A stretch of 64,000 bases of DNA from an uncultured Lachnospiraceae bacterium. GTDB taxonomy: Bacteria > Bacillota > Clostridia > Lachnospirales > Lachnospiraceae. The position numbers and the translations under genes are program-made. The stretch is taken from assembly GCA_900314445.1 (NCBI GenBank), contig OMVA01000059.1, forward strand, positions 1 through 64,000, given 5' to 3'. Below the pieces are notes generated by a model that was not told the DNA's origin, did no database searches, and was given only the letters and a program-made list of their open reading frames with translations. Within the stretch, counting starts at the first letter, position 1. Every line of letters begins with the position of its first letter. Positions 57,878 through 63,425 of this stretch are shown one piece after another.

Positions 57878-58545
57878 TGCGTGATAGAATTTTATCTCCA
57901 TCAATGCTTAGCGTTGATTTTTGTAATATGGAAAGAGAACTAAAAAATGTAGTGAATGCTGGTGCACAGTGGATGCATGTGGATGTAATGGATGGTACTT
58001 TTGTTCCAAACATCTCATTTGGCGCACCTGTTATGAAGTATGTCCGTAAGGCTCTGCCTGATACTTTCCTGGATGTTCATTTGATGGTGGAAGAACCAAT
58101 CCGTTACCTGAACGACTGGAAGGCAAATGGGGCTGATATTCTTTGCATTCATGCAGAAGCAGTAAAGCATTTACATAGCGCTGTCATGGAGATTAGGAAA
58201 GCTGGTCTTAAGGTGGGAGTTGCCCTGAATCCAGCAACTCCTGTTTCCGTTTTGGAATATGTCATGAATGATATTGATATGGTACTTGTTATGAGTGTGA
58301 ATCCTGGATTTGGTGGACAGAAGTTCATTCCTTCTGCTCTTCGTAAAATCAAGGAAGTTCGCCAGATGGAAGAGCGCCTTGGCGCCAGTGTCGACGTAGA
58401 AGTTGATGGTGGTGTAAATCTGGATAATGTGGATGATGTACTGGCAGCTGGTGCAAATGTAATTGTTGCAGGTTCTGCTGTATTTGGTGGAGATTCCGAA
58501 GAGAATGTGAAGAAGTTCCTGGAACACTTTGCAAGTGCGAATTAG
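57877..58545 (+). CDS. rpe: ribulose-phosphate 3-epimerase
   Basis: 222 residues; interconverts ribulose- and xylulose-5-phosphate. TIM barrel with SPSMLSVDF, HVDVMDGTFVPN, DVHLMV and DGGVN, the metal and catalytic landmarks. ATG 57877 is eight bases after AGGAGG; an ATG six bases upstream is too close. Position after rsgA is conserved in Firmicutes. Confidence 0.96.
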   Translation: MRDRILSPSMLSVDFCNMERELKNVVNAGAQWMHVDVMDGTFVPNISFGAPVMKYVRKALPDTFLDVHLMVEEPIRYLNDWKANGADILCIHAEAVKHLHSAVMEIRKAGLKVGVALNPATPVSVLEYVMNDIDMVLVMSVNPGFGGQKFIPSALRKIKEVRQMEERLGASVDVEVDGGVNLDNVDDVLAAGANVIVAGSAVFGGDSEENVKKFLEHFASAN

Positions 58546-59262: not shown

Positions 59263-60738
59263 ATGAAAAAACATGAAACACAGGAACTGAATATTCTTAC
59301 CTTCTGTAGCGGAAAGAATGCTCTTAATGTGGGGCTGGCTCTTTCCTCTACAATTTTTATGTGTGGCTTCCCAGCTCTTATTATCCTGCCATTTTACATC
59401 TATCTATTTGGTGCAGGAATGATTTGGCTTGTTCTGGGGGCCTTTCTTTCTATGCTTTTAATTTGGTATTACGCATCCTACAGACTGATGCGCTATTCCC
59501 GTAAGGCAGAGGGGCTATATACCATTCCGGGTTATCTTAGATTCCGCTTTTCTGGTGGTAAGGGATATCCGGGACTTGTGGCAGCTCTGGAAATTACCAT
59601 GCTGACACTGATTTGTCTGTCTCTGATTCTCAATGAAGCAGGACTGATTGTGGAGAGAATTTTCCGTATTCCAACCGCTTTGTCCAATGCACTGATTTTG
59701 GTAATCATACTGATTCCTCTTGCAAAGAGAGGCTTTGCTTATATTACAAACTCTGCCATTGTCAAAGCATTCATTCTTTTACTCTGTCTTCTTATTTGCA
59801 CACTGCATATCTATACATCCATGAATATTAAAGAAATTGTGGAAAATACAATGCGCAGTGGTATTAAGGGCAGTGTTAGTGTTTATATCAATATTCTTTT
59901 CCTGGATAATAAGGTGATGGGACCTACAGATTATTTATCCAACATTTCTTTGGGATTTTTGATTATTGGATGTCCAAGTGTACTTATGGGCTTTCTCTTT
60001 GGAAAAGATGGTCAGAAGTTAAATGCGGGAAAGAGATTATCTTTACTCTTTTTTGTCATCTTTACAGGGGTTGCTGCCTTCTTTGGCGGTTCTCTTCGCG
60101 GGTATATGTATCCAATTGGGGTAACAAAATCTTTATCTGAATTTATAATGAATCTTTTCCAGGCTTTTATTAAAAATGGTAGCTGGGGAATTGTTGCGGG
60201 CATCTCATTTGCCATTGCGGTGGTGGTGGCTTGTATGATTCTTGTGGAGACTTGCATTTATCTACTTATTGCCACGGTGGCAAAGGATATTTTGCAGGAT
60301 GGAAGATTGGTGAGACTGCCTAAGGAACATGATGCCAAGGCTCTTTATATTACTGAGGTGTGTGTGGCAATCCTGGCATTCTTTTTGACCTTTATGGTGA
60401 GAGAACTTCGCATGGAGGGAGTGCTTATTATCCTGGCGATTCTTTCTTGTTCCATGGGTCCGGTGGTTATGATTTCGCTTCTGTGGAAGAGAATGAATTC
60501 TGTTGGTTGTCTGGTGGGACTTATGAGTGGATTCTTCTCTGTTCCTTTTTACAAGTTTGTACCACTGATTGAAGTGGCAGGAGAGAAGGTCAGCATTTGT
60601 ACTGCCATGGACGTAAATGCTATTCTTTTATCCATGGCTACAGGAAGTGTGTTGATTTTGTTGACTTCACTAATTAGCCCGAAGCCAAATGAGAAACAGA
60701 TTCAGGACTTCATGGATGTTAAAAATCGACTGGTTTAA
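59263..60738 (+). CDS. SSS-family sodium/solute symporter
   Basis: 491 residues with about 12-13 membrane helices and the general pattern of sodium:solute symporters. The segment GFLIIGCPSVLMGFLFGKDG sits where PutP-like proteins have their GYPGQPH signature, which here is modified. The substrate cannot be named. It is followed by two hairpins and then the ATP-grasp/phosphohistidine protein. ATG behind TTTAGGTAAGGGTTAGAC. Confidence 0.8.
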   Translation: MKKHETQELNILTFCSGKNALNVGLALSSTIFMCGFPALIILPFYIYLFGAGMIWLVLGAFLSMLLIWYYASYRLMRYSRKAEGLYTIPGYLRFRFSGGKGYPGLVAALEITMLTLICLSLILNEAGLIVERIFRIPTALSNALILVIILIPLAKRGFAYITNSAIVKAFILLLCLLICTLHIYTSMNIKEIVENTMRSGIKGSVSVYINILFLDNKVMGPTDYLSNISLGFLIIGCPSVLMGFLFGKDGQKLNAGKRLSLLFFVIFTGVAAFFGGSLRGYMYPIGVTKSLSEFIMNLFQAFIKNGSWGIVAGISFAIAVVVACMILVETCIYLLIATVAKDILQDGRLVRLPKEHDAKALYITEVCVAILAFFLTFMVRELRMEGVLIILAILSCSMGPVVMISLLWKRMNSVGCLVGLMSGFFSVPFYKFVPLIEVAGEKVSICTAMDVNAILLSMATGSVLILLTSLISPKPNEKQIQDFMDVKNRLV

Positions 60739-60771: not shown

Positions 60772-60810
60772 TAAAAAATACAGGCCTTCAGTTCCGAACC
60801 TGAAGGCCTG
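60772..60810 (-). terminator. intrinsic terminator in minus-strand orientation
   Basis: CAGGCCTTCAG (60781-60791) pairs with CTGAAGGCCTG (60800-60810). The T tract lies only on the minus-strand side (A run at 60773-60778); the plus-strand side has none. No minus-strand gene is known here. A smaller hairpin, AGCTCAT (60738-60744) with ATGAGCT (60758-60764), overlaps the symporter stop. Confidence 0.7.
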
Positions 60811-60966
60811 CTAGACGATACACTATTCATAAGGTGAGAGAGTTATGAAATATTGCGTGCTATTTATGTAACTAACTATACCCTATAAATATGAACAAAG
60901 TATTAACAAATACAAAAGTTACTGTAAAAAATCGATACTTATATCAAAAATATGGTGAAAATTTAG

Positions 60967-63321
60967 ATGTTTAGAGAAAATGAGTCAATCATAAGTAAGG
61001 CAGATGTGCTGAAATATCTGTATTCCAAACTTCCAATCGGTGCGGTTGAGAGAGTGGGCTTTGTGCGGGCTGGTGATTTTAAGGCAGATCCGGATACTGC
61101 AATCAAAAGAGTGCAGAAAGAATTTCCAAGTGGTTCCATTGTGGTACGTTCTTCTTCTGTAAAAGAAGATTCCTACCTTACTTCCAATGCAGGTCACTTT
61201 GACAGTGTTCTTCATGTGGATGCCAGCTCCAAGGAAGAAGTGGGCAAGGCTATTGAGCATGTACTGGCTTCCTACCTGGAAGGGGAAGAAGAATATGAGG
61301 GATTTCTGGATGAGCAGGTTTTGATTCAGACAGAATCGGAAAATGTAATTTGCGCCGGCGTAATTTTTACCAGAGATATTCGTCAGAATCGCCCTTACTT
61401 TACAATCAATTATTCAGAGGATGGCACCACAGATGCTGTTACTTCCGGTAGAGGCGGTAAGGTGCTTCATATTGCAAGAGATATTGATGAAGAAATGGTG
61501 CATGGTATGTTCCGGCCACTGATTCATCTGGTTCGAAGAATCCTGGAACTTACCAGCATTGATAATCTGGATATTGAATTTGGTATTCGCAAAAATGGAA
61601 CCGTAGTAATTTTCCAGTGCAGACCTCTTGCTGCTGTTATTGGGAAAGAAGTATTGGCCAGTGATGAAGAAATATTTCAAGCTCGTCAGGATGCGCATTC
61701 CATTTACCAGAATTTAAATGACATCCTGTCGGATATGGCGTTCTGGAATCCGTCCGAGATTATTGGAGATAATCCATTCCCTCTGGATTACAGTCTTTAT
61801 CGGGAGATTATTACTGCCTATATCTGGAGTGCGGGAATTTCTTCTATGGGCTACCACTATGTGAATGGGGATCTTATGTATCAGTTGGGCAATAAGCCTT
61901 ATATTTCTGTGGATAAATCCTTTGAGGGATTAATTCCGGAGGCTTTGCCACCAAGACTGCAGAAGAAGTTAAAGACTTACTATATAAATAGACTGATCGA
62001 TGATCCTTCGGCTCACGATAAGATTGAATTTGAAATTGTTTTCTCTGTTTATGATTTCTGCACAGATGAAAATCTGGATAAGCTTCTGGATTATGGCTTT
62101 ACAAAAAATGAGATTATGCAGATTCGTCGTAGTCTCTTTTCTATTACAGAGCTGGCTGTTCGTTCTTACTCAGAAATTTATCAGGAGGATATGCAGTCCC
62201 TGGAAAATATGAGAGTGCTTCGTCATGATATCCGTCATGCGGGAGGACTTACCAGCACGGATCCAAAGCTGCTTTTGGACTTTGTGGGCCAGTTACTGGA
62301 ATCGATTAAATCCGATGGTACACCACAGTTCTCTCGTATGGCACGACTTGCCTTTATTGCAAAGTCCTTTACCAAGACTTTGGTTTCCAAGGGCTATGTT
62401 TCCAATGAGAGAATGGATCTTTTCAATCGTTCCATTAATACCGTGGCCTCAGACTTTGAACGTGATTTCGATGCCCTGAGTGCAGGGGAACTGTCAAAGG
62501 AAAAGTTCAATGATAAGTATGGCCATTTAAGACTGGGAACTTATAATATCCGAACAGATTGTTATTCAGATATGTACTTTGAACAGACGGAAACCCCTGC
62601 GGTATCTGTTCATAAGGAAAAGATTGTTACAGACTTTACTCCACATCTGGAGGCTGTACAGAGAGCTCTGGATGATTATGAAATGGATTTTGATGCGGAG
62701 GTCTTACTGGATTACATTCGGAAGACCACAGAGAATCGAGAGTTTTTCAAGTTTGAATTCACCAAGTCTTTGAGTCTGCTCTTAAATATTCTTATTCATT
62801 TTGGTAAAGTCACAGGAATTGAACGAAATGATCTTTCTTATCTCACCATTACAGATTTCTTTATGTATAGTGAAATGGAAGACCTGCTTCCATATTTGAA
62901 GGAAAGAATTCAAATGAATAAGAAAATCTTTGAGATTAATTCCTGCCTTATGCTGCCGGAAATAATATTTGCGGAACAGGATATTGATGAGATTGCAGAA
63001 GCTGCTTCTCGTCCAAACTTTATTACATCAGCCAATGTAACAGCGCCTGTGGTATTGCTGGATCAGGCGGGTAGTGACGTGGATATCGATGGTAAGATCG
63101 TAGTTATTACCAAGGCAGATCCTGGTTATGACTGGATTTTCACAAGAAATATTGCGGGCTTTATTTCCAGATATGGTGGTGCGGCATCCCATATGGCTAT
63201 TCGATGTGCAGAGTTTAATGTGCCTGCTGCCATTGGTTGCGGAGAACGTATTTTTCATGATGTATGTCAGATGCAGATGGTTCGTCTGGATTGTCAAAAG
63301 CATCAGATTTCAGAACCTTAA
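60967..63321 (+). CDS. ATP-grasp plus phosphohistidine-domain protein (rifampin-phosphotransferase-like architecture)
   Basis: 784 residues. The N-terminal ~235 form a PEP-synthase-type ATP-binding domain (SIVVRSSSVKEDS, NLDIEFGIRKNGTVVIFQCRP). A middle ~450 residues match nothing I know. The C-terminal ~90 residues are the PEP-utiliser mobile domain with His742 in YGGAASHMAIRCAEFNVPA. There is no PEP/pyruvate TIM barrel, so it is neither PpsA nor PpdK. ATP-grasp/unknown/His order is that of rifampin phosphotransferase; the acceptor here is unknown. ATG behind GGTGAAAATTTAG. Confidence 0.85.
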   Translation: MFRENESIISKADVLKYLYSKLPIGAVERVGFVRAGDFKADPDTAIKRVQKEFPSGSIVVRSSSVKEDSYLTSNAGHFDSVLHVDASSKEEVGKAIEHVLASYLEGEEEYEGFLDEQVLIQTESENVICAGVIFTRDIRQNRPYFTINYSEDGTTDAVTSGRGGKVLHIARDIDEEMVHGMFRPLIHLVRRILELTSIDNLDIEFGIRKNGTVVIFQCRPLAAVIGKEVLASDEEIFQARQDAHSIYQNLNDILSDMAFWNPSEIIGDNPFPLDYSLYREIITAYIWSAGISSMGYHYVNGDLMYQLGNKPYISVDKSFEGLIPEALPPRLQKKLKTYYINRLIDDPSAHDKIEFEIVFSVYDFCTDENLDKLLDYGFTKNEIMQIRRSLFSITELAVRSYSEIYQEDMQSLENMRVLRHDIRHAGGLTSTDPKLLLDFVGQLLESIKSDGTPQFSRMARLAFIAKSFTKTLVSKGYVSNERMDLFNRSINTVASDFERDFDALSAGELSKEKFNDKYGHLRLGTYNIRTDCYSDMYFEQTETPAVSVHKEKIVTDFTPHLEAVQRALDDYEMDFDAEVLLDYIRKTTENREFFKFEFTKSLSLLLNILIHFGKVTGIERNDLSYLTITDFFMYSEMEDLLPYLKERIQMNKKIFEINSCLMLPEIIFAEQDIDEIAEAASRPNFITSANVTAPVVLLDQAGSDVDIDGKIVVITKADPGYDWIFTRNIAGFISRYGGAASHMAIRCAEFNVPAAIGCGERIFHDVCQMQMVRLDCQKHQISEP

Positions 63322-63425
63322 GTTTGAGAAAAATCACATCAAATTTACTGAAAATTTGAATGCTCTATGATATACTTGAACAGATTGAAAAACTTATTCG
63401 ACGAGAGTCGCAGAAAGAGGAATTC

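Follow-up and report, generated by a model that had tools for sequence, protein, structure and literature searches.

The window, i.e., the whole stretch of 64,000 nucleotides of Lachnospiraceae DNA that was analysed, encodes a dikinase of the PRK05849 family that is probably a stand-alone L-glutamine (amide-N) kinase, a reading in which the reaction as well as the substrate are inferred. A swivelling mechanism of the dikinase type is much more certain than glutamine as the acceptor, and is well supported by homology since both the fold and the aligned catalytic residues are conserved. The family and the fold were already known; what sets the window's kinase apart is that it is kept alone without the usual partner enzymes.

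Family membership, fold and catalytic residues

The open reading frame of the kinase (Table 1) starts with ATG, is complete, and encodes 784 amino acids without internal stops. Although its product had originally been regarded as an orphan, it belongs, over its full length, to PRK05849 (NCBIfam model NF004508, labelled only as "hypothetical protein"), scoring 725.1 bits against a cut-off of 501 and matching with its residues 8–782 to positions 11–786 of the 789-position model. Since 60 invariant columns are common to 58 aligned homologues, and a close pair from the same clade (L026/L027) displays a dN/dS of 0.028, the protein is not a chance reading frame. The window's genome (G000) contains a single copy of the kinase, and PRK05849 members scoring over the cut-off were found in 3 of the 61 relatives searched (G000, G032, and G046), in 2 of the 37 searched genomes of the genus, and in 1 of the 398 genomes of a phylum sample (i.e., the window's own). 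A single-sequence scan of GTDB genome contigs yielded no relatives; when the query was an alignment of three rows, 196 were obtained from the GTDB genomes. A different type of protein was seen in another genome of the genus (L117, on G018:C39), where an 801-aa frame matches PRK05849 at its two ends only (71.3 and 34.6 bits) and represents a further dikinase for small molecules whose middle part differs. Furthermore, a 43%-identical kinase is present on an unannotated record of 9540 bases from human faeces (L152:661–3009; MT837632.1, "Bacteriophage sp."), the DNA of which may be bacterial.

Table 1. Positions of the kinase gene, its domains and catalytic residues, and adjacent features in the window
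Feature	Position	Strand	Basis
SSS-family symporter, neighbour	59263..60738	+	Genus-wide fixture after thiN, outside the kinase system
Stem-loop of 12 pairs in the symporter–kinase gap	60780..60811	.	Inverted repeat; T-run on the - strand only, where no gene is assigned
PRK05849-family dikinase, putative stand-alone L-glutamine (amide-N) kinase	60967..63321	+	ORF; NF004508; model
ATP-grasp (PPDK_N-type) domain, residues about 1–225	60967..61641	+	Pfam PPDK_N; PEP synthase 2ols Z 17.8, PPDK 1dik Z 17.3
Arg61, aligned with RPH-Lm Arg117	61147..61149	+	Profile alignment; invariant in 58 rows
Asp202-Ile203-Glu204; Glu204 aligned with RPH-Lm Glu297	61570..61578	+	Profile alignment; D202 and E204 invariant
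Predicted acceptor (substrate) domain, residues 226–690, RPH rifampin-binding fold	61642..63036	+	Separate model, pLDDT 92.8; fold matches
Arg591-Glu592-Phe-Phe-Lys595, aligned with RPH-Lm Arg666-Glu667-x-x-Lys670	62737..62751	+	R591, E592, and K595 invariant in 58 rows
Swivel phosphohistidine domain, residues 691–784	63037..63318	+	Pfam PEP-utilizers; fold matches
His742, predicted phosphate-carrying histidine	63190..63192	+	Swivel motif GGAASHMAIR aligned with the RPH-Lm His825 motif

The domain order of the original prediction, i.e., an ATP-grasp domain, a middle region (ca. 465 residues), and a C-terminal phosphohistidine domain, was confirmed by Pfam, by structure modelling, and by fold alignments. 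Pfam recognised PPDK_N (best stretch at residues 45–150, 40.8 bits vs. a cut-off of 27) and PEP-utilizers (residues 708–778, 47.2 bits vs. a cut-off of 23.1), and gave nothing over cut-off for residues 226–690, the only other match in the protein being a sub-threshold and chance-like one to Dsc3_C (14.6 bits vs. a cut-off of 25). The phosphohistidine domain indeed comes last, with the chain ending 42 residues past His742, and the predicted absence of a PEP/pyruvate barrel was borne out, as no Pfam barrel model matched the protein and its middle domain is of the rifampin phosphotransferase (RPH) type.

An AlphaFold2 model of the protein, built with 58 homologues, reached a mean pLDDT of 90.4 and a pTM of 0.87. 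When this full model was used in Foldseek, a rifampin phosphotransferase ranked first (5hv1, E-value of 3.3e-18), and VIA-align matched it to 5fbt over 591 residues (Z 21.0) with an rmsd of 10.3, which we attribute to the domains sitting in different relative positions. The middle region had been considered unidentifiable, but when residues 226–690 were modelled separately, they folded like the rifampin-binding domain, with Z-scores of 13.9–17.8 against six RPH entries (338–367 residues, rmsd 4.5–4.9), the best match (Z 17.8, 350 aligned residues, rmsd 4.5) standing far above the next non-RPH match (Z 6.8). Structure prediction and fold search thus revealed an RPH-type middle, and neither a standard PEP-synthase middle nor a C-terminal barrel. 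Judging from the model, the middle domain is homologous to the rifampin-binding domain, both in fold and, in its C-terminal half, by sequence. About 100 residues of the swivel domain aligned with enzyme I and pyruvate kinase domains (Z 11.7–15.0), and HpeI was also among the fold matches of the model. The two-component dikinase HpeHI is, like the window protein, a small-molecule dikinase of the RPH type, and is described as being split over two proteins and acting on hydroxyphenylethanones or phenolic substrates (PMC12167813).

With the rifampin phosphotransferase RPH-Lm (5fbs, 5fbt, 5fbu, and 5hv1-3), the window protein shares the domain order, the fold of all three domains, the Arg-Glu-x-x-Lys motif, and the swivel histidine motif. 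A family profile aligned to RPH-Lm (residues numbered by counting along the printed alignment) placed the window residues opposite residues of described function. In RPH-Lm, Arg117 is described as touching the alpha-phosphate of the nucleotide, Glu297 as binding Mg, and Arg666 and Glu667 as critical for the second phosphotransfer, with the Arg-Glu and Lys reported to be kept by even the remotest homologues (PMC4844700). Eight positions (R61, D202, E204, Q217, R591, E592, K595, and H742) were invariant in 58 of 58 rows. Moreover, 89 positions show a conservation of at least 95% among the 51 rows that do not belong to the window's clade, and the window protein retains 88 of them, including 41 of 41 in the middle domain, although the latter may be mostly structural.

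Gene neighbourhoods of relatives and the proposed reaction

The genes surrounding the kinase were typed in 81 kinase loci, leaving 79 distinct ones after removal of L115 (duplicate of L042) and L116 (duplicate of L025); L062, whose kinase match was not contained in any one ORF, was left out. Since only the best 80 of the 196 relatives were retained (as 79 loci), this typing favours sequences near the window. A hydrolase and a nucleotidyltransferase were both neighbours of the kinase in 36 of the 79 distinct loci, and in 23 of those 36 (24 before removal of L115) an extra CTP-transferase-like domain was fused to the N-terminus of the kinase. In a further 25 loci the hydrolase was fused to the C-terminus of the kinase, without a nucleotidyltransferase nearby, and in eight the hydrolase was a neighbour without a detected neighbouring nucleotidyltransferase, some of these lying near contig ends and one (L097) having a nucleotidyltransferase-like part fused to the kinase. 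Seven loci, including the window, had neither partner and an SSS symporter upstream (referred to as the orphan type). Three of the 79 were partial (L077, L081, and L094).

The neighbouring hydrolases are class-I amidotransferase-like, and NF045546 (gamma-glutamyl-CDP-amidate hydrolase) was the best NCBIfam match for all six separate hydrolases scanned (L002, 93.6 bits; L092, 90.4; L091, 103.8; L085, 117.6; L121, 75.4; L120, 125.8), and it ranked second for the hydrolase-like domain of the L041 fusion protein (67.0 bits). Because all of these scores are below the equivalog cut-off of 250, the scanned hydrolases are relatives and not proven equivalents. On a plasmid of a Deltaproteobacterium, the kinase is followed by a hydrolase, a nucleotidyltransferase, an unknown gene, a methyltransferase, and an APS-kinase-type kinase, a run that by its gene content recalls Cj1415–Cj1418 of Campylobacter jejuni; on a Vibrio plasmid, the order is kinase, hydrolase, nucleotidyltransferase, and a CDP-glycerol glycerophosphotransferase-like gene.

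The 25 fusion loci comprise L028, L029, L031, L033–L036, L038–L041, and 14 others. The hydrolase Cys (CRGMQ) and His/Glu (HPE) motifs were intact in 7 of 7 fusions aligned, and no dedicated nucleotidyltransferase was found in any of the five fusion-carrying genomes searched, so that each of these kinase-hydrolase fusions is a candidate for producing free phosphoramidate as a single protein. Two of them have an SSS-family symporter directly downstream (L041:5412–7001 and L048:3815–5356), which in L041 is PutP-like (508.8 bits vs. a cut-off of 515.5). Directly upstream of the orphan-type kinase of L026 lies a Cof-type HAD phosphatase (L026:7161–7970), with an ORF of the same size at that place in L027; this phosphatase could act on the phosphorylated product.

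In C. jejuni, Cj1415–Cj1418 are reported to convert glutamine, ATP, and CTP to CDP-phosphoramidate 3′-phosphate (PMC11800397), in which Cj1418 is described as the L-glutamine kinase, formerly annotated as PEP synthase or PPDK (PMC10971088, PMC6429109). The L-glutamine kinase reading of the window protein follows from its relatives adjoining, or being fused with, relatives of the Cj1418 partners (the hydrolase and usually the nucleotidyltransferase), and from these neighbours Cj1418 itself (EC 2.7.3.13, of the O-methyl phosphoramidate pathway) would be the same type of dikinase. Presumably, Cj1418 belongs to PRK05849, and the individual partner activities are here assigned to Cj1415, Cj1416, and Cj1417 on the same footing of assumption. 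PRK05849 as a whole would then be a glutamine kinase family, a reading based on gene neighbourhoods. Neither a Lachnospiraceae nor a fused glutamine kinase was named in the titles and abstracts found in the open-licence literature.

Mechanistically, ATP would be bound by the N-terminal ATP-grasp domain, and its beta-phosphate would be attacked by His742 of the C-terminal swivel domain, with the gamma-phosphate being released as Pi and AMP leaving. The phosphohistidine would then swivel, and its phosphate would be passed on to the acceptor that the middle domain holds. Because the downstream nucleotidyltransferase and hydrolase are absent in the window's bacterium, some other activity would there have to use the product or turn it over.

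The orphan-type clade and its missing partners

Members of PRK05849 share the structure of the window protein, and it is in the clade of the window that pathway neighbours are lacking. In a tree built from 58 of the typed kinases (made with a quick method and a midpoint root, with composition warnings on 21 rows and one long branch, L075), the seven rows with an SSS symporter and without partners formed one group (support 99). This group adjoins the fusion group (support 99) and kinase-hydrolase pairs without a nucleotidyltransferase, all of them nested among pathway-linked rows; as the tree was quick and midpoint-rooted, the "loss" of partners rests on this nesting and not on a tested root.

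Partners elsewhere in the genome were sought with profile searches of 15 genomes (the completeness of assemblies G481–G485 being unknown). Dedicated hydrolase genes scored 230.6–325.1 bits in the eight genomes having one, and six of the seven orphan-type genomes reached just 45.5–52.4 bits; the seventh (G485) has an amidotransferase match of 100.3 bits, similar to the second matches (82–108 bits) in four other genomes. For the window's own genome, the best match to the Cj1417-type hydrolase was a 537-aa frame (50.1 bits) which by its length we take to be CTP synthase-like, the best match to NF045546 scored 33.7 bits (vs. a cut-off of 250), and the best match to the Cj1416-type nucleotidyltransferase scored 43.8 bits (vs. 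410.2 and 451.5 in two control genomes). No dedicated nucleotidyltransferase was found in the orphan-type genomes (at most 68.0 bits in seven) or in the hydrolase-only genomes (at most 91.6 bits in six). The N-terminal CTP-transferase-like domain was absent from G000 and G032, and found in G046. A search of three genomes, run without a positive control genome, gave no match to an APS-kinase-type (Cj1415-type) CDP-amidate kinase. In contrast to the Cj1418 setting, the window's genome thus lacks a dedicated hydrolase and nucleotidyltransferase, and its kinase sits among housekeeping genes instead of in a capsule cluster. Given the conserved positions and the dN/dS of 0.028 despite these absent partners, the kinase is maintained, catalytic residues included, without its pathway.

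The loss of all partner genes in this clade could accompany a change of substrate, and the foremost alternative to glutamine phosphorylation is that the same dikinase machine has drifted towards a different small metabolite, amino acid, or amide, which would explain why the clade gave up the nucleotidyltransferase and hydrolase. Such a drift would fit with the well-supported orphan clade being devoid of both dedicated partners in the genomes searched, and with related folds accepting molecules as different as rifampin and phenols. Nevertheless, all 41 middle-domain positions that the pathway-linked and fused relatives conserve are unaltered in the window protein, and the fusions and kinase-hydrolase pairs without a nucleotidyltransferase bridge the full pathway to the orphan type, so that we regard substrate drift as rather unlikely, albeit a serious contender. 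Under the preferred reading as a glutamine kinase, a bolder scenario is possible, if tentative: some Lachnospiraceae would have pared the capsule phosphoramidate pathway down to its first enzyme, with the glutamine kinase retained on its own in fully conserved form and free N-phospho-L-glutamine serving as a regulator or final product (a phosphagen, a signal, or a modulator of glutamine-using enzymes), and the kinase-hydrolase fusions of sister lineages would yield free phosphoramidate, two phosphorus-nitrogen metabolites without a known role in these bacteria.

Genomic setting and further alternatives

The kinase is set in a housekeeping run that we take to be prkC-rsgA-rpe-thiN-SSS-[kinase]-[bactofilin]-pyrH-frr-uppS-cdsA-dxr-rseP-ispG, in which all names except those of the SSS symporter, bactofilin, and kinase are assigned from the sequences. 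In 59 of the 61 genomes of the genus, thiN is immediately followed by the SSS gene, the remaining two being without a thiN match, and the order thiN-SSS-bactofilin-pyrH was found at 8 of 10 fetched genus sites without a kinase; of the other two, one is cut off by the contig end at the SSS gene, and the other carries additional ORFs between the SSS and bactofilin genes. Because the thiN-SSS order holds without the kinase, the latter is an optional member of an otherwise fixed arrangement, and the substrate of the symporter says little about that of the kinase. The bactofilin gene is missing from the window (63322–63425), and present at all six remaining loci of the orphan type and at 9 of 10 kinase-less sites.

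The gap between the SSS and kinase genes measures 228 bases and contains the stem-loop of Table 1, while terminator-like sites (2 found vs. 1.9 expected) and promoters (7 found vs. 7.3 expected) were at chance level. Rfam, searched with a riboswitch in mind, turned up nothing at its gathering threshold in any of eight related loci; between positions 58000 and 64000 of the window, its only matches were to eukaryotic snRNA/snoRNA families, at chance level.

The original prediction had suggested that the substrates of the symporter and the kinase might be related, and a kinase that phosphorylates and thereby traps a solute imported by the adjacent symporter could be imagined, as an SSS gene lies upstream in all seven distinct orphan-type loci and the abovementioned symporters follow two kinase-hydrolase fusions (L041 and L048). 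This link did not hold up, however: the symporter is a near-constant of the genus and is retained at sites without the kinase, the kinase exceeds the cut-off in only 2 of the 37 genomes searched, and the two genes are separated by the stem-loop-containing gap. Transport coupling is therefore improbable.

Even less probable is a rifamycin phosphotransferase or other antibiotic kinase. Despite sharing its domain order and fold with RPH, the window protein scores just 26.4 bits with RIF_Ptrans_rph (cut-off 999), which upholds the earlier expectation of a substrate other than rifampin; its identity to RPH-Lm is 14–18% in the VIA-align alignments and 13–15% in the middle domain, and its family travels with phosphoramidate-type genes. 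Finally, a PEP synthase or pyruvate phosphate dikinase, with which the protein has the ATP-grasp and phosphohistidine domains in common and as which its plasmid relatives are publicly annotated ("PEP-utilizing enzyme", "PEP/pyruvate-binding domain-containing protein", or "pyruvate, phosphate dikinase"), was rejected since the domain layout contradicts it, i.e., the barrel is absent, the swivel domain is C-terminal and not central, and the middle is of the RPH type.

If true, the glutamine kinase reading would provide a probable function for a family with at least 196 loci across the GTDB genomes. It suggests that the phosphorus-nitrogen chemistry of the Campylobacter capsule also occurs in gut Lachnospiraceae in a pared-down form, as a kinase-hydrolase fusion or as the kinase alone, and raises the testable question of what role free N-phosphoglutamine or phosphoramidate may play in a cell.
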